Positions 56,046-64,000 of a stretch of 64,000 nucleotides of DNA are shown here, piece after piece. Numbering within the stretch: position 1 is the stretch's first letter; every line of letters starts with the position of its first letter. The notes below the pieces were generated by a model. It was not told where the DNA came from. It did no database searches and was given only the letters and a program-made list of their open reading frames with translations. The position numbers and the translations under genes were made by a program. The DNA comes from Oscillospiraceae bacterium (GTDB lineage: Bacteria > Bacillota > Clostridia > UBA1212 > UBA1255). Location: NCBI GenBank assembly GCA_015069185.1, contig SVJB01000001.1:141037-205036 (forward strand). The letters are read 5' to 3'.

Positions 56046-56074
56046 TTGACGCATCTGACAATGTATGGTATCAT
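56046..56074 (+). promoter_or_regulatory. Promoter of the lipoprotein cluster
   Basis: TTGACG-N17-TATCAT with extended TGG immediately before the -10. Confidence 0.75.
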
Positions 56075-56118
56075 AAAACGATTGAGGGCAACTCAAATAA
56101 ATTAAAAGGTGACCAGTA

Positions 56119-58950
56119 ATGAAAACATTTAAGAGAACAGTTACACTACTTTTGGCATTATGTATGATCACAGCACTTATGGTTGGTATAGTTGGATGTG
56201 ACAATGGAAACACTCCTGATTCAAACATCACACCGGCTCCTTCTGAGGGACCAGGAAGTAGTGAGAATGGTACATATAATATTAGTGTCAAGTCTTTTGC
56301 AGGAATGGTATTGTCTGATATAGACGTATATGTATATGCAGATAATTCACTTACTGATTTAAAAACCTTAGGAAAGACAGATGCTAATGGATATGTAAGC
56401 TTTGACCTCCCAAAGAATGATAATTATGCAATAGAGCTCAGAGGACTACCTAAGGGATATAATGTTGAGCCTTATTATTCTTTCACAGGAAACACTGCAT
56501 TAATTACATTGTCTACTTCTGTTGTGAAGGAAGAATTACCGGGAAATACTTTATTAAAAGCCGGTGATGTTATGTATGACTTTACATTTACAACTCCCGG
56601 TGGAGAAAAGATCAATCTTGCTGAAATATTAAAAGAAAAAGACGCTGTACTACTTAATTTCTGGTATGTAAATTGTCCTGCTTGTGTTCTTGAATTCCCA
56701 TATATGCAAGAGGCATACGAAATGTACGGTGATGATATAGAGATTGTTGCCGTGTCACCGATGGATGCTGACCATGATATTACAAAATTCCAGAACGATA
56801 ATAAGCTTACATTTAAAATGGCCTCTTGTTCATTTTCTTGGCCGACTGCATTTTCTGTAACAGGCTATCCGACTTCAGTACTTATTGACAAATATGGAAT
56901 GATTTGTCTTGTTGAGGTAGGCGCATTAACAAGTTTGAGGCCTTTTACATCAATGTTTGATCATTTTACTGCTGATGATTATAAACAGAAAATTTGTACA
57001 AGTATTGACGATCTTATAACAAAGATTAAACCCAATAAAGAAATGGATACATCTGAGAATATTGGAAATGCCATCAACAGTGGTTCGATTAATGTTACAT
57101 ATCGTCCGGAAACAGAGAGCTCTAACGCAGAGTATGCATGGCCTTTTATAATCGATGAGAAATATGGCAGAAAATGTATCTATGCATCTAATAAAGGTAT
57201 TGAGGATTCATATGCAGCCATTTATGCTGATATCGAATTAAAGAAAGGACAGGCAATCGGATTTGATTATATTATATCTAGTGAAGCATATTCTGATATA
57301 ATGTTTGTTATCGTTCAAAAGGATGATATTTATTCCATTTCAGGTCTTAAAGAAGCCGAGGGTTGGAAGTCTTGTTATCCTTGGGTTGCTCTGGAGGATG
57401 GTACATATGAGCTTGCACTTGTATTCTCTAAAGACAGTGATACAAACGAAGGTGATGATACCGTATACATTTCCAATATGCGTGTAATAGATGCAAAAAA
57501 CATTGATAGTGACGCATATATTTCAAGAAATGCGGCTACCGAAAAAGATGGTACTTTTGAATATGCTGATATAGTCTTTAATTCAAATGATGGTTACTAT
57601 CATGTTGGTTCAGAAAACGGCCCACTTCTTCTGGTTGATCTTATGAATTTAACATTATTTAATGAAGAGAAATCAATATTTGATTTAACATATGAGGATG
57701 ATGCCACCATTAACGGAGTGAAAATATATGAGGCAATGATTAATTATTTCTCATATGCATCAAATTCATCTCTCAATGGAGTATGTACCGTAAATGGTGA
57801 ATTGGCAGAATTCCTTAAAGAAGTTGCTAATATATATGGTTTTGATAATAATGAAAAAGAATGGCTCAAAGCCTGCCGTTATTATCAATACTATGGACCT
57901 ATTGAAGGCAAACAACTTGTAGACCCGATTCAAGGACTTGCTACGTTCTCAGCCACAACAGTTGTAGAAGGCAAAGATAATCCTGATAACTACTTCTATT
58001 ATGATAGAGTAATAATCCCGCGTGGTGTTCTTAAGAAATTTGTTCCGACAAAAACAGGTGTGTATAGAATTACATCCAAAAGTACGTCTATCCAAGGTGT
58101 TAATGGCTGGATATTTAACGAACAAGGTGAGATTATTTATACATATGAACATTTTGAGAGATTATATGAAGATACCCTTAATGTGTCGATGGTTTACTTT
58201 ATGGAGGCCGGAAAATCGTATTATATCGATATAGCATTCTGGGATGTTTATGAAGTTGGTTCAATTTATTTTGATATTGAATACATTGGAAGAACTTTTG
58301 ATTTATTCCAGGTTTGTTCTCCGGGATATTATACATATGATACTGATGCAACAGGGGAAGCTATGTATGAAACAATAAGCGGTGGTATCAAAGCTGTATT
58401 AGGAAATGATGGATATTACTATCATGACTTGGGTAAGGATGAAAATGGAAATCAGATTTATGGAAGTAAGATTTATGCTGATTTTACAGGCCTCACTGTT
58501 ATGAGCCATCCGATAGCATCTGTAACGGTTAATGGAAAAACAGAAAAAGGTATTATCGATCTTGGCGGATTTGATTTTAGTAAATCAGAGGGCGATCAAG
58601 AGATACTTACTTATTTGGCAAATCGTAACAATGATGTTGAAGCTACCAAATCATATTTAAAAGAGCTTTGGGGAGAGCAATATGAGACATATGCTGCTCA
58701 ATATAAAATTGATGAAGTTTTTGCAGGTAAATATCATGGCGCCGGTTCAGATTGTACTGAAGCTATGAAAAAATATTTGTCCAAGATAATTGAAAATGGA
58801 AAAGATGAACTTATCGGTTGTGTTGCAGTTGATGAAGAACTTGCTGAAATGTTACAAATGTTGGCAGATAAATATGTTAACCCGATGGATTACAGTGTAG
58901 AATTTGGTTGGCTCAAGCTTTGTTATTATTATGAATATCTAGGAGCATAA
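56119..58950 (+). CDS. Lipoprotein P1: Ig/SdrD-B-like domain, TlpA-like thioredoxin domain (CPAC), beta-rich region, two copies of an unrecognised C-terminal module
   Basis: Lipobox IVGC; LLNFWYVNCPACVLEFPYMQEAY, cis-Pro loop GYPTSVLIDKYG; NDGYYHVGSENGPLLLVDL...WLKACRYYQYYGP and NDGYYYHDLG...WLKLCYYYEYLGA. Confidence 0.8.
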   Translation: MKTFKRTVTLLLALCMITALMVGIVGCDNGNTPDSNITPAPSEGPGSSENGTYNISVKSFAGMVLSDIDVYVYADNSLTDLKTLGKTDANGYVSFDLPKNDNYAIELRGLPKGYNVEPYYSFTGNTALITLSTSVVKEELPGNTLLKAGDVMYDFTFTTPGGEKINLAEILKEKDAVLLNFWYVNCPACVLEFPYMQEAYEMYGDDIEIVAVSPMDADHDITKFQNDNKLTFKMASCSFSWPTAFSVTGYPTSVLIDKYGMICLVEVGALTSLRPFTSMFDHFTADDYKQKICTSIDDLITKIKPNKEMDTSENIGNAINSGSINVTYRPETESSNAEYAWPFIIDEKYGRKCIYASNKGIEDSYAAIYADIELKKGQAIGFDYIISSEAYSDIMFVIVQKDDIYSISGLKEAEGWKSCYPWVALEDGTYELALVFSKDSDTNEGDDTVYISNMRVIDAKNIDSDAYISRNAATEKDGTFEYADIVFNSNDGYYHVGSENGPLLLVDLMNLTLFNEEKSIFDLTYEDDATINGVKIYEAMINYFSYASNSSLNGVCTVNGELAEFLKEVANIYGFDNNEKEWLKACRYYQYYGPIEGKQLVDPIQGLATFSATTVVEGKDNPDNYFYYDRVIIPRGVLKKFVPTKTGVYRITSKSTSIQGVNGWIFNEQGEIIYTYEHFERLYEDTLNVSMVYFMEAGKSYYIDIAFWDVYEVGSIYFDIEYIGRTFDLFQVCSPGYYTYDTDATGEAMYETISGGIKAVLGNDGYYYHDLGKDENGNQIYGSKIYADFTGLTVMSHPIASVTVNGKTEKGIIDLGGFDFSKSEGDQEILTYLANRNNDVEATKSYLKELWGEQYETYAAQYKIDEVFAGKYHGAGSDCTEAMKKYLSKIIENGKDELIGCVAVDEELAEMLQMLADKYVNPMDYSVEFGWLKLCYYYEYLGA

Positions 58951-58970
58951 GAATATTAAGGAGAATTTTA

Positions 58971-60251
58971 ATGAAAAAGACTATTTTAGGTAAATTATTT
59001 ACTTTTGCTGCGTTGCTTTTATGCTGCGCAGCGTTTTTATGTTCTTGTGGGGGGAATGATGACAATACTCCTACTCCCGAACCAACATCAGTAAACGCAG
59101 ACTACACAGTAAATGTTGTTGATGCAACAGGCAAGCCTGTAACTGATGGTGTTGTTGTTAAATTTTTACAGGATGGAAAGCAAATTTCCATGCAGATTGT
59201 AAATGAAAACGGAAGTGTTACTAAAAACATGCTTCGTGGCAATTATGATGTTGAATTATTATTCACAGCTGGAGAAGAGAGTTTTTATTACAACAAAGAA
59301 AATAATAAATTATCAGCAGAACGGACCTCTCTGGAAATACTTGTAGCGAATCGTATATCGGGAGAAGTTCGTGAACTTGGTGTGGGTGATAAGAGATATT
59401 CTGCATACTCAGTATCTGAAGGTGGCACTTATACTACTTTAGATAAAGGAAATAGAAACTACTTTTTATTCTGTCCGGATAAGCCTGGTCAGTATAAATT
59501 TTACCTAAAAGCCGGGGAAGGAACTATAGGATATTATGGATCTCCTCATTTTGTTCAGTCAGACAATGTTGCTGAAACAAAAGATGATGTTTCTTTTTCG
59601 ATGAATATATATGGATCAATGATTAGTTCTCAAGGTGGCGGCACAGTTGAAGTTGTAATTGGTATTGATCCGTCAGAGAATACCAATGATTGTATAATTT
59701 GCATCGAACGTATAGGCGATCCTGAACTTTCTTATGATAATGAACCTTTTGATATTTATAATCCGACAGTTTCATTAAATAAATATACTTTGCCTGCGGA
59801 TGCTGAATTGAAACAATTTGACTTAACTGCTTCAACTGATAATTATAATCTGGTTTTGAATGAAAACGATGGATTTTATCATCTCGGTAGTAAAGATGGC
59901 CCTTTAGTTTTAGTTAGTTTGACAGAGAAAAATGATTATCTCGCCTCATTTAAGACAATTCTTGAAACATCAGGAGTTGTTAGATATTTCTTTGATGAAG
60001 AAGGAAATTTCTTAAAAAAAGAGTCATATTCAGAATGTTTACTTAAATATATAGAAAACGCTGATACGGATAAAGGTGTTTATCCGTTAACAGCAGATCT
60101 TATGTATATAATTCAGCAACGTGGTGATTATGTTGGGTGGTTTGATTCTGAACGTGATTTGTACTTATTTAAAGATACTAATGGAATAAATATTCCTGGC
60201 ATCAACAAGGAAATTTCATGGTTATTTATGTGTTGTTACATTGAAGCATAA
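58971..60251 (+). CDS. Lipoprotein P2: Ig-like domain, beta-rich region, unrecognised C-terminal module; no thioredoxin domain
   Basis: Lipobox LCSC; DYTVNVVDATGKPVTDGVVVKFLQDGKQ; NDGFYHLGSKDGPLVLVSL...ISWLFMCCYIEA. Confidence 0.8.
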   Translation: MKKTILGKLFTFAALLLCCAAFLCSCGGNDDNTPTPEPTSVNADYTVNVVDATGKPVTDGVVVKFLQDGKQISMQIVNENGSVTKNMLRGNYDVELLFTAGEESFYYNKENNKLSAERTSLEILVANRISGEVRELGVGDKRYSAYSVSEGGTYTTLDKGNRNYFLFCPDKPGQYKFYLKAGEGTIGYYGSPHFVQSDNVAETKDDVSFSMNIYGSMISSQGGGTVEVVIGIDPSENTNDCIICIERIGDPELSYDNEPFDIYNPTVSLNKYTLPADAELKQFDLTASTDNYNLVLNENDGFYHLGSKDGPLVLVSLTEKNDYLASFKTILETSGVVRYFFDEEGNFLKKESYSECLLKYIENADTDKGVYPLTADLMYIIQQRGDYVGWFDSERDLYLFKDTNGINIPGINKEISWLFMCCYIEA

Positions 60252-60254
60252 GGG

Positions 60255-63197
60255 ATGATAATAATGTTAATTAAAAAATATTTTAAATATTTTATAGTTG
60301 TTGCAATTGTTATAATTTGTATTTTAGGTGTTGCTTGTGAAAAATCAGATGATAATTTAAAGCCATCTGCCGTTCCATCAGCTTCGCCAGAAACAGGCAC
60401 ACCGCAAAATTATACAATTACTATAAAGACAGAAGGTGGTATGCCGCTACCAGATATAGATGTTTATGTTTATACAGATAGCTCCATGACGGAGATTGTC
60501 TGGGCAGAAAAAACAGATTCAGATGGAAAAATGCAATTCAGTGATTCTATTACTGGCGATGCTGTTGTAGTTTTAAAAAAAGTTCCAATTGGATATTCGT
60601 ATGAAGATACATATAAAATTACGTCAACAGAATTTGTGATAGCATTAAAAACAAATATTGTTGAAGCCGATATACAATCCAGTTCTTTTAAGCCAGGACA
60701 AATAATACCCGATTTTGTTTTCACAGATTCTGAAAATAATACATATAAGGTTTCGGACATTCTCAAAGAAAAGAAAGCACTTGTACTAAATTTCTGGTAT
60801 GCTGCCTGCAAACCTTGTGAGATGGAATTTCCTTATATGGATGCTGCATACAGTCAGTTTTCCGATAAACTTTCATTATTTGCAATGAATCCTGTTGACA
60901 CATCCAATCAAATTGTTCAGCAGTTTAAGACGGATAACAATTTAACAATTCCAATGGGCGTTTGTAGCAATCAGTGGGAAAAGGCATTGCCGATTACTTC
61001 TTATCCTACAACTGTTATTATTGATAGATATGGAATGATCAGCTATATTCACAATGGATATATTACAAGTACAGAAGTATTTGAGAACATATTTGCATAT
61101 TATACATCAGATGAATATATCCAAAAGATTATAACTGATATAGAAGAAATTACTCCTGTAGAGGAAGAGCTGGGTACCGCAGGTAATCCTTATGAATTTG
61201 GTGGTGTGACAGAATTTGAGGTTGAAGTTCCTGCAGGCAAGACTGTTTACTGTGATGTATATAAAGTTTCAGGCATGATTATGGAGATTAATAGTGAAAA
61301 TATTAGTCTTAAGTATCAGAATGAGATATATACTCCAAATAATGGTAAGATTTCTTTTGTAGTTACATCAGCAGATACTTTTACTCCTGTACAATTAGAA
61401 ATTACAAATACTTCAAATTCCGATGAGACTTATAAGTTTTCTTTTAAAAGTATTGAAGGAACTCCTGAAAATCCGTATAAATTTGAGCTTGGAGAGTTTA
61501 CAACTAATACTGATGCAGGAGACAGTCAAGGAAAGTATTATACATATACTGCTACAGCAGATGGTACAATTAAAATTACATGTAAATCTGTAACATCAGG
61601 TATTTCATATGAATATGTGTTATATAATCTTAATTCATATGCCTACAACACAATGTCAACTGATGGTGTAGAAGAAAATGGTTTGATGACAGTATCTGTA
61701 AAAGTAAAGAAAGATGATATTATACAAATTTCTTTGGCAGTATTACCGGATGGAACTAATAATATAGCCGCAGGTAGTTTTGTTTCTGTTGCTGAATTTA
61801 TTGAAGGTAACGATGATAACAATACAGAAGTAAAGCCCGAGAAAATTACATATAAAATCACTGTAACCGATAATAAAGGAAACAAATTAAAGAATGTAAA
61901 TGTTTCTTTTATAGCAGGCTCTGATATTACAAAGTTAACAACAAATTCAAATGGTGAAGCATCAATTGAATTTGAAGAAGGCGACTATAGTTTTAAAATA
62001 ACTATTCCTGATGGTTATGAAGCTGATAAAACATCTTTTGATGTTTCAAAAGAAAAGAACCAGATAACTGTAACGATAAATAAGAAAGTTATTGTTGAAA
62101 ATGTTACAAAGAATTATGTAGTACGCATTATTGATGTTAATGGTAAGCCTATTACAGGTATAACTGTTAAGTTTTTACAAGAAAATGTTATAAAAGCTAC
62201 AAAACAGACAGATAATAATGGTAAAGCAACAGAATCGTTAATTAGCGGAGAATATACTGTTAGTCTGGAAGGAATACCGGAAGGCATGTTCTACAATAAT
62301 GGTATGGCTGTTTTATCAAACGAAAAAACAGAAACAACATTTGTGATCGCACCTAAAGTTTCAGAGGAATTTACAGAATTATATGTGGGTAATGCAAATA
62401 TAATTACTACGAATTCTGTTTATGTTGATCTACCTTCAGATGAAATGAATTATTTTATTTTCACACCGGAGGCTTCAGGATTATATAGAATTACACTATC
62501 CAATACATATGCACAGCTTAGTTATTGGGGTGGTAATGAGTTTTATATTGCGAATATAACTGAAACTACTGATATGAATAATAATTCTTTTACTTTAAAT
62601 GTTAAAGAAGGAAATCTTGGTATATGTTGTATACTAGGTGCAGTAGGTGATTTAGGTGCTATATTGACTGTTGAACGTACAGGTGATGCACTTCTTGATA
62701 TTAGTGATATTGATTATATTATTTATACTCCATCAGAAACACCTACAAAAATCACAATAAATGGCTCTCCTAAATTAACTTTTGTTGATATTACAGGAGC
62801 TACAAATGATTATAAACTTTATTATAATGAGACTGATGGTTATTATCATATAGGCTCTGAAAATGGACCGGTGGCATATGTTTCTTTTGGAGAATCTACA
62901 CCCTATATCTCATATAAAAAATTACTGGAGACTACGGGTGTCAAATCGTTTATATATGATAAGAATGGCAATCTCGTGAAAAAAGAGGATTATACAAATT
63001 GTATAATTGACTATGTTTCATGTGCTGATGAAACAACAGGAATATATCAGCTTGATCAGGATTTGATTTATATTTTATCAAATCATATTGATTATATGGG
63101 TTGGTGTGATTCATCTGATGCGGCATATTTATTTAGTAGTATTGATAATGTGAATGATGAAATATCATGGATGTTTTTGATTTGTTATATTCAATAA
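60255..63197 (+). CDS. Lipoprotein P3: Ig-like, TlpA-like thioredoxin domain (CKPC), further beta and Ig-like domains, C-terminal half paralogous to P2
   Basis: Lipobox GVAC; LVLNFWYAACKPCEMEFPYMDAAY, SYPTTVIIDRYG; NYVVRIIDVNGKPITGITVKFLQEN; TDGYYHIGSENGPVAYVSF...ISWMFLICYIQ. Confidence 0.8.
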   Translation: MIIMLIKKYFKYFIVVAIVIICILGVACEKSDDNLKPSAVPSASPETGTPQNYTITIKTEGGMPLPDIDVYVYTDSSMTEIVWAEKTDSDGKMQFSDSITGDAVVVLKKVPIGYSYEDTYKITSTEFVIALKTNIVEADIQSSSFKPGQIIPDFVFTDSENNTYKVSDILKEKKALVLNFWYAACKPCEMEFPYMDAAYSQFSDKLSLFAMNPVDTSNQIVQQFKTDNNLTIPMGVCSNQWEKALPITSYPTTVIIDRYGMISYIHNGYITSTEVFENIFAYYTSDEYIQKIITDIEEITPVEEELGTAGNPYEFGGVTEFEVEVPAGKTVYCDVYKVSGMIMEINSENISLKYQNEIYTPNNGKISFVVTSADTFTPVQLEITNTSNSDETYKFSFKSIEGTPENPYKFELGEFTTNTDAGDSQGKYYTYTATADGTIKITCKSVTSGISYEYVLYNLNSYAYNTMSTDGVEENGLMTVSVKVKKDDIIQISLAVLPDGTNNIAAGSFVSVAEFIEGNDDNNTEVKPEKITYKITVTDNKGNKLKNVNVSFIAGSDITKLTTNSNGEASIEFEEGDYSFKITIPDGYEADKTSFDVSKEKNQITVTINKKVIVENVTKNYVVRIIDVNGKPITGITVKFLQENVIKATKQTDNNGKATESLISGEYTVSLEGIPEGMFYNNGMAVLSNEKTETTFVIAPKVSEEFTELYVGNANIITTNSVYVDLPSDEMNYFIFTPEASGLYRITLSNTYAQLSYWGGNEFYIANITETTDMNNNSFTLNVKEGNLGICCILGAVGDLGAILTVERTGDALLDISDIDYIIYTPSETPTKITINGSPKLTFVDITGATNDYKLYYNETDGYYHIGSENGPVAYVSFGESTPYISYKKLLETTGVKSFIYDKNGNLVKKEDYTNCIIDYVSCADETTGIYQLDQDLIYILSNHIDYMGWCDSSDAAYLFSSIDNVNDEISWMFLICYIQ

Positions 63198-63213
63198 AGA
63201 AAGAGGTATTATA

Positions 63214-63633
63214 ATGAGAAATTGTAAATTATTAATTGTATTAATAATAGTTTTAGGTGTTATTATGATGTTTGGCTGTGGCAGTGAGAACAATCCAACT
63301 GCTACAAGTACTCCTTCTGCTAATGAACCGACACCGGAAGCATCACCAACAATTGCACCAACAGAAGAGCCTTTAACTGATGGTTATAAAGTAACAGTTG
63401 TTGATGAGACAGGTAAGGGATTAGAAAATGTATTTGTTCAACTCTGTAAAGATACTTGTGTTCCATCAAAAACCGATAGCAAGGGAGTTGCTACATTTAA
63501 TTTACCTGAAGATGAATACAAAGTAGCTATTCTACAGATGCCAGAAGGATATACATATTCCGGAGATGAAACAGAGTTCTATTTTGAATCAGGTTCAAAA
63601 GAAATGACTATAGTTCTTAAAGCGGCTGAATGA
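63214..63633 (+). CDS. Lipoprotein P4: small, single Ig/SdrD-B-like domain with CKDTC motif
   Basis: Lipobox MFGC; Pro/Thr/Ser-rich linker; YKVTVVDETGKGLENVFVQLCKDTCVPSKTDSKGVATFNLPEDEYKVAILQMPEGYTY. Confidence 0.8.
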   Translation: MRNCKLLIVLIIVLGVIMMFGCGSENNPTATSTPSANEPTPEASPTIAPTEEPLTDGYKVTVVDETGKGLENVFVQLCKDTCVPSKTDSKGVATFNLPEDEYKVAILQMPEGYTYSGDETEFYFESGSKEMTIVLKAAE

Positions 63634-63705
63634 TATTTGTGATAAATAAAAACTGCGGAAAATTCTCTCTGCATTCTTAGCGGAGAAATAGGCGGGCACA
63701 AAACT

Positions 63706-63733
63706 TCGGCAGAGAACTTGTTTTCTCTGCCGA
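63706..63733. repeat. Hairpin: perfect 11-bp inverted repeat
   Basis: TCGGCAGAGAA-cttgtt-TTCTCTGCCGA. Confidence 0.85.
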
Positions 63734-63757
63734 TATGTGTTGTAATGGAGTTAATAG

Positions 63758-63784
63758 AAAGGCTCCCTCCCGGAGGGAGCCTTT
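63758..63784. repeat. Hairpin: perfect 12-bp inverted repeat
   Basis: AAAGGCTCCCTC-ccg-GAGGGAGCCTTT. Confidence 0.9.
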
Positions 63785-63803
63785 GGATACACGCAACCTT
63801 AGG

Positions 63804-63841
63804 GGTATGGGCTTTGCCCTATGCCTTTGTAATACAAAGGC
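63804..63841. repeat. Two overlapping, mutually exclusive hairpins
   Basis: GGTATGGGC-ttt-GCCCtATGCC (one bulge) and GCCTTTGT-aat-ACAAAGGC share bases 63823-63825. Confidence 0.75.
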
Positions 63842-63918
63842 GAAACTAGCAATAAACAAGCAATAAACAAGATTTTTTTGAACAGTTAAAAACTTGAATC
63901 TATTGAGAGGAGAAGAAA

Positions 63919-64000
63919 ATGAAAAAAGTAGCTATTCTTTTGATATGTGTGCTTTATTTGCTAACATTGTCTAGTTGTGGACTTGTTTATATGGATGATT
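63919..64000 (+). CDS. N-terminus of a further lipoprotein, truncated by window end
   Basis: AGAGGAGAAGAAA RBS then ATG; MKKVAILLICVLYLLTLSSCGLVYMDD, lipobox LSSC. Confidence 0.7.
   Translation, partial: MKKVAILLICVLYLLTLSSCGLVYMDD

Follow-up and report, generated by a model that had tools for sequence, protein, structure and literature searches.

A conserved four-gene lipoprotein cluster of gut Clostridia as the putative extracytoplasmic arm of a thiol-redox relay

The window analysed here is a stretch of 64,000 nucleotides from an Oscillospiraceae bacterium (G000:C53:141037-205036), and it ends where its 205036-bp contig stops. Near that end lie four genes, all on the + strand and separated by gaps of 20, 3 and 16 bp, which encode the lipoproteins P1 (943 aa, 56119..58950), P2 (426 aa, 58971..60251), P3 (980 aa, 60255..63197) and P4 (139 aa, 63214..63633), each with an N-terminal hydrophobic signal and a lipobox-like Cys. 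A previous sequence-only reading of this DNA had described the same layout and assigned the cluster to an extracytoplasmic thiol-redox or envelope system in which P1 and P3 supply the redox chemistry. The reading frames, their coordinates and gaps, the common strand and the lipobox-bearing signal peptides were all confirmed, and the present work concerns the possible function of these genes and the electron supply on which they may depend.

P1 and P3 are best read as extracytoplasmic TlpA lipoproteins with a predicted role in thiol-disulfide exchange. From its lipobox (C27), P1 runs through an immunoglobulin (Ig)-like domain, a TlpA/ResA-like domain (residues about 145-290, 56551..56988, +; Pfam AhpC-TSA, 1.7e-12), a jelly-roll-like domain (residues about 310-460, 57046..57498, +; from the strands of an AlphaFold2 model), a module that we call YYH (residues 474-594, 57538..57900, +), a beta domain that, from its place in the protein and the strands predicted there, is probably PPC-like, and another YYH copy (residues 734-943, 58318..58947, +). 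The two Cys of its CxxC motif (CPAC, C186/C189, 56674-56685, +) are invariant in 10/10 P1 homologues. P3 combines an Ig-like and a TlpA domain (CxxC motif CKPC, 60807-60818, +) with further Ig-like and other repeats and a PPC/YYH tail (YYH at 62763..63194, +). Both proteins thus carry a thioredoxin fold with CxxC, scoring over the Pfam cut-offs for AhpC-TSA/Redoxin. Their scores against the curated ResA/StoA models are below cut-off (67.7 and 78.1 bits versus 170 for NF002854; 35.8 and 37.3 versus 210 for NF041202), and hence these are TlpA-like domains and not ResA or StoA orthologues. The P1 domain also matches the NCBIfam ResA model under its cut-off (1.1e-18), and its closest PDB relatives are ResA-type structures. 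A fair AlphaFold2 model of P1 (predicted local distance difference test, pLDDT, 74.7; predicted template modelling score 0.48) has the DipZ ectodomain and ResA as its best PDB matches in Foldseek.

P2 consists of an Ig-like domain, a PPC/collagen-binding-like beta domain (59358..59717, +) and a YYH module (59793..60245, +). It matches no Pfam family above cut-off and its relatives conserve no CxxC, so that P2 remains a candidate for a redox-free component. For the AlphaFold2 model of its C-terminal part, which is of fair quality (pLDDT 79.6), Foldseek was convincing for the first half only, the PPC/collagen-binding-like domain (5sv5, E 2.8e-4, probability 1.0). The YYH module, with the signature D-G-Y-Y-H-x-x-S-x-x-G-P-L ... 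W-L-x-x-C-x-Y, has no Pfam family common to its members and no PDB sequence match; it is confined to P1-P3 in the window's own genome and is rare across the class (2/391 genomes). The N-terminal halves that P1 and P3 were thought to share are indeed related (36% identity over 298 aa, 8e-54), as are the C-terminal halves of P2 and P3 (34% over 388 aa, 3e-63), although the latter module is not restricted to this pair, occurring twice in P1 as well. P4 resembles one of the P3 Ig modules (28%, 6e-8).

P4 contains a single SpaA/prealbumin-like Ig domain (Pfam SpaA, 28.2 bits against a cut-off of 23.1). The sequence-only reading took it for a lone Ig-like module, grouping it with P2 as redox-free, and for P4 this view does not hold. 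An alignment of 9 P4-like domains, all taken from P1-bearing loci, has just five invariant columns. Two of the five are Cys: the pair C78-x3-C82 (QLCKDTC, 63445..63459, +) is conserved in 9/9. The other Cys of P4 are that of the lipobox and one in the signal peptide, and such a pair is missing from the Ig modules of P1-P3. The pair thus sets P4 apart from a simple, redox-free Ig module. Across its family the pair mostly takes the form QLC-x3-4-C, with an inter-Cys spacing that ranges from 3 to 10 residues. A sortase-anchored pilin or adhesin was considered for P4 and rejected, since the 139-aa protein has an N-terminal lipobox and lacks a C-terminal LPxTG.

The cluster is conserved in relatives. 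Scanning 84,980 species genomes with an alignment of the P1 C-terminal region returned nine genuine homologues of P1 (L044-L052), of which at least six lie in metagenome-assembled genomes (MAGs) from the hindgut of sheep, goat, cattle and roe deer. Orthologues are found in a sister species (G008/L044, 65%) and in L045-L049 (52-56%), and L050-L052 hold distant full-length homologues (27-33%). The P1-P2-P3-P4 order, whose conservation the sequence-only reading had proposed as a check, recurs in ruminant-hindgut MAGs; it is intact in L044, L045 and L049 and nearly so in L046, with one inserted gene; L047 has P1-P3-P4 without P2, L048 has P1-P2-P3 up to its contig end, and P1 is adjoined by a P4-like gene in L050-L052. 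Homologues scattered singly without a shared neighbourhood, which that reading had named as grounds for refutation, were not encountered. The flanks vary: lepA-hemW lies beside the cluster in the window and in L044, and about 3 kb off in L045, and other genes occupy this place in L046 and L052. Among the 16 genomes of the family, none outside the window's genus has P1, and a P1 C-terminal profile run against a sample of the phylum yielded jelly-roll fragments only. The most variable member is P3, which is long in the window (980 aa) and in L045 (about 1060 aa) and short in L044, L047 and L049 (311, 291 and 208 aa), where only the TlpA part, in some cases together with the Ig-like one, is left (Ig plus TlpA in the sister species). 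Together with the shared modules, this varying architecture supports the earlier suggestion that the cluster was built by domain reshuffling. The P1 homologue of L049 (516-3368) has an N-terminal membrane helix in place of the lipobox, and lipidation is therefore not essential to the P1 family.

In the sister species, a module on the opposite strand, just downstream of a GH32 gene, encodes two membrane proteins (L016/L044). One is of the NapH [4Fe-4S] type, 500 aa long, and ends in a TlpA domain (CTSC); the other, of 144 aa, belongs to the CD1871A family (43.2 bits against a cut-off of 32) and has its CxxC at the extreme C-terminus. The NapH-TlpA fusion and CD1871A also adjoin the cluster in L045 and the distant P1 of L052/L034 (=G204). 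A 4Fe-4S redox partner, which the sequence-only reading had suggested looking for, thus lies beside the cluster in three relatives, that is, at 3/4 P1 loci with enough flanking DNA; the rough chance of such adjacency is 4e-6, a figure that ignores shared ancestry. TlpA is fused to the NapH C-terminus in most P1- or P4-linked loci. More generally, CD1871A is present in 66/382 genomes of the class; a NapH-type gene occurs at 59/60 fetched CD1871A loci, the exception being a sub-threshold CD1871A match, and TlpA lies within 2 kb of NapH at 45/60, on the same strand every time. Scanning the class with a P4 hidden Markov model (HMM) revealed P4-like Cys-pair genes in G099, G245 and G364, all adjoining NapH/TlpA/CD1871A; a further match without the pair, in G349, is a generic Ig repeat inside a giant protein. 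Generic CD1871A loci yielded no P4-like proteins, and the other lipoproteins around NapH form no consistent Cys-pair family. The P4-like ORF (open reading frame) of G245 overlaps a YYH-bearing ORF. At L068:1540-3968, P4-like and YYH-bearing ORFs beside NapH-TlpA and CD1871A share 4 bases (ATGA), and they are either coupled genes or a single gene split by a frameshift. A large, subtilase-like secreted protein with leucine-rich-type repeats starts beside CD1871A in the sister species and in L045 (L016:1-5548, - strand; L045:21294-21908); it is possibly a client or an unrelated neighbour. When this subtilase (S8) was used as a bridge to the missing piece, all that it matched in the genome of the window were repeat regions.

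The sequence-only reading had expected a CcdA-like donor. As a candidate for this role CcdA/DsbD was rejected, since neither PF02683 nor PF13386 was found in the assemblies of the window's genome and its sister species (85% and 79% complete, respectively). DsbD_TM was likewise not found in 40/56 tested CD1871A genomes, DsbD_2 giving no extra positives over cut-off, and the module therefore commonly occurs without CcdA. One further TlpA protein of the window's genome, a stand-alone 176-aa lipoprotein (CPPC; L008:9219-9749, G000:C35) with neither CcdA nor NapH nearby on its contig, is possibly a second client of the same carrier.

Since the NapH/CD1871A/TlpA module adjoins the cluster in relatives, P1-P4 are probably the outer end of a CcdA-independent thiol-redox pathway. 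The earlier proposal stands insofar as P1 and P3 have TlpA domains with intact CxxC, and is not supported in its CcdA donor and its redox-free P4. On sequence grounds, we consider it fairly likely that P1-P4 form the extracytoplasmic arm of a thiol-redox relay in anaerobic gut Clostridia. In such a relay the NapH-type protein and CD1871A would be reduced by a cytosolic donor of the ferredoxin or quinol type, and the NapH Fe-S clusters, with CD1871A, would hand the electrons to the TlpA domain outside the membrane. This domain might then exchange thiols with the CxxC of P1 and P3, which would act on disulfides of surface proteins. P4 could serve, through its Cys pair, as a small partner dedicated to this redox exchange or as a substrate, and P2, with the YYH, PPC and jelly-roll modules of P1 and P3, might anchor the enzymes to a surface ligand or target. 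The sequences themselves show the gene order, the domains, the intact CxxC motifs, the P4 Cys pair, the donor module near the cluster in relatives and the lack of CcdA; we infer the direction of electron flow, the contacts between partners, the target and the occurrence of a donor module in the window's own genome. The full scheme, with direct and CcdA-independent reduction of TlpA by the Fe-S protein and CD1871A, an outer relay of P4, P1 and P3, and YYH modules that target it, is more tentative, being conceivable and somewhat less than an even prospect.

Several observations weigh against a relay of this kind. Neither NapH-TlpA (searched at E 1e-8) nor CD1871A was found in the assembly of the window's genome; nonetheless, with 85% completeness and a contig that stops 367 bp beyond P4, this assembly does not prove the donor module absent. 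At L049, the exception among the four loci with enough flanking DNA, the stretch of about 7.6 kb that follows P4 downstream contains no NapH. Most CD1871A-NapH-TlpA loci are without P1-P4, which makes the core relay independent of them. TlpA-fold proteins can also be oxidases or isomerases, and the two P4 Cys may form a structural disulfide or bind a metal. This last point extends to a separate explanation, in which the pair is only structural or metal-binding and P1-P4 co-occur with the redox module for an unrelated reason, shared horizontal transfer for instance. Cys pairs of secreted Ig domains are often structural, and the variable spacing within the P4 family fits this explanation. It appears improbable all the same, given that the three P4-like genes retrieved outside P1 clusters by the P4 HMM alone all lie beside NapH/CD1871A.

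It is also conceivable, and in our view rather unlikely, that P1-P4 are mainly surface lipoproteins for binding or adhesion to host or plant polymers, with an ancillary TlpA domain that tends their own disulfides. The bulk of P1-P3 is made of beta-rich, binding-type domains, neither P2 nor the YYH modules have a redox motif, the middle domain of P2 is PPC/collagen-binding-like, and Ig domains of the SpaA/Cna type are typically found in the surface proteins of Gram-positive bacteria; moreover, cluster members come from the ruminant hindgut and a GH32 enzyme adjoins the cluster in the sister species. Against this stand a TlpA domain with CxxC in 10/10 P1, a Cys pair that is the most conserved feature of P4, and a NapH/TlpA/CD1871A neighbourhood that is consistent at P1- and P4-bearing loci of several families. 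The remaining explanation keeps the redox chemistry and changes its sense: in a Dsb-like pathway of oxidation or isomerisation, the TlpA domains would form or shuffle the disulfides of secreted proteins, and NapH/CD1871A would return the electrons to the membrane. We regard this as a poor prospect, because the P1 TlpA domain has its nearest relatives of solved structure among ResA-type proteins, which are reductive in known cases. Still, one thioredoxin fold can serve either direction, and reductases are not the only reported partners of NapH-like modules, oxidases being reported too (PMC8238504).

Other features of the locus concern its expression and its boundary. The promoter proposed upstream of P1 (56046..56074, +), a sigma-70-like TTGACG-N17-TATCAT with an extended -10 TG, is present and matches at 10/12 positions. 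Matches of this kind do not exceed their frequency in shuffled sequence (41 found, 43.6 expected), and the promoter is consequently plausible and not demonstrated. Downstream of P4, an inverted repeat with an 11-bp stem (63706..63733) is a possible bidirectional terminator. It is followed, shortly before the contig end, by a near-perfect palindrome, AAAGGCTCCCTCCCGGAGGGAGCCTTT (63758-63784), without a second copy in the window; the palindrome and hairpin region may be a dispersed repeat at which the assembly broke. The fifth lipoprotein reported from 63919 was confirmed as a start of 27 codons (MKKVAILLICVLYLLTLSSCGLVYMDD...; 63919..64000, +) that runs off the contig.

These findings may be set against known systems. 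In DipZ of M. tuberculosis, a CcdA-like membrane part is fused to Trx + CBM within one protein. Its order of thioredoxin and then beta-sandwich (2hyx, 5cyy) is that of the P1 TlpA and jelly-roll domains, and it gave the top Foldseek hits, the P1 region aligning to the C-terminal structure 2hyx over 340 columns; the high root-mean-square deviation (17.8) means that only domain order is common to the two. P1 was rejected as a DipZ, being a lipoprotein with no polytopic domain and with further modules. The CcdA-Etrx-MsrAB2 relay of S. pneumoniae (PMC3914529) similarly has surface TlpA-type lipoproteins fed by a membrane carrier, and Etrx2 structures match the P1 TlpA domain in Foldseek. That relay draws on CcdA and a cytosolic thioredoxin donor and includes MsrAB2, whereas here an Fe-S protein takes the place of CcdA and the cluster is without MsrAB. 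NapH-like proteins have been proposed as transmembrane electron carriers to extracytosolic partners (PMC8238504), and the NapH/FMN-binding systems share with ours a NapH-type Fe-S membrane protein with a fused or adjacent extracytosolic redox domain, a TlpA thioredoxin domain replacing the FMN (flavin mononucleotide)-binding one.

The cluster is real and conserved, and it probably belongs to a recently described, uncharacterised 4Fe-4S/CxxC/TlpA type. A three-gene operon of this make-up was reported once in the literature searched, in a 2025 bioRxiv preprint on melanoma immunotherapy (PMC12637426), as an operon of gut Clostridia that marks immune side effects in melanoma patients, with no substrate named and no mechanism tested. 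CD1871A is named in no paper of that literature; judging from the operon's description, its CxxC protein would be CD1871A (NCBIfam NF040920). The comparison bears on the question of how strict anaerobes without CcdA deliver reducing power to surface thiols. As in that operon, a NapH-type 4Fe-4S protein, CD1871A and TlpA adjoin the P1 and P4 homologues; unlike in it, NapH and TlpA are mostly fused, and two large TlpA lipoproteins, P2 and the Cys-pair P4 are added. The two TlpA lipoproteins and the tiny Cys-pair protein, the latter adjoining the module in several families, are thus candidate outer partners that might turn a vaguely defined redox operon into a testable relay.

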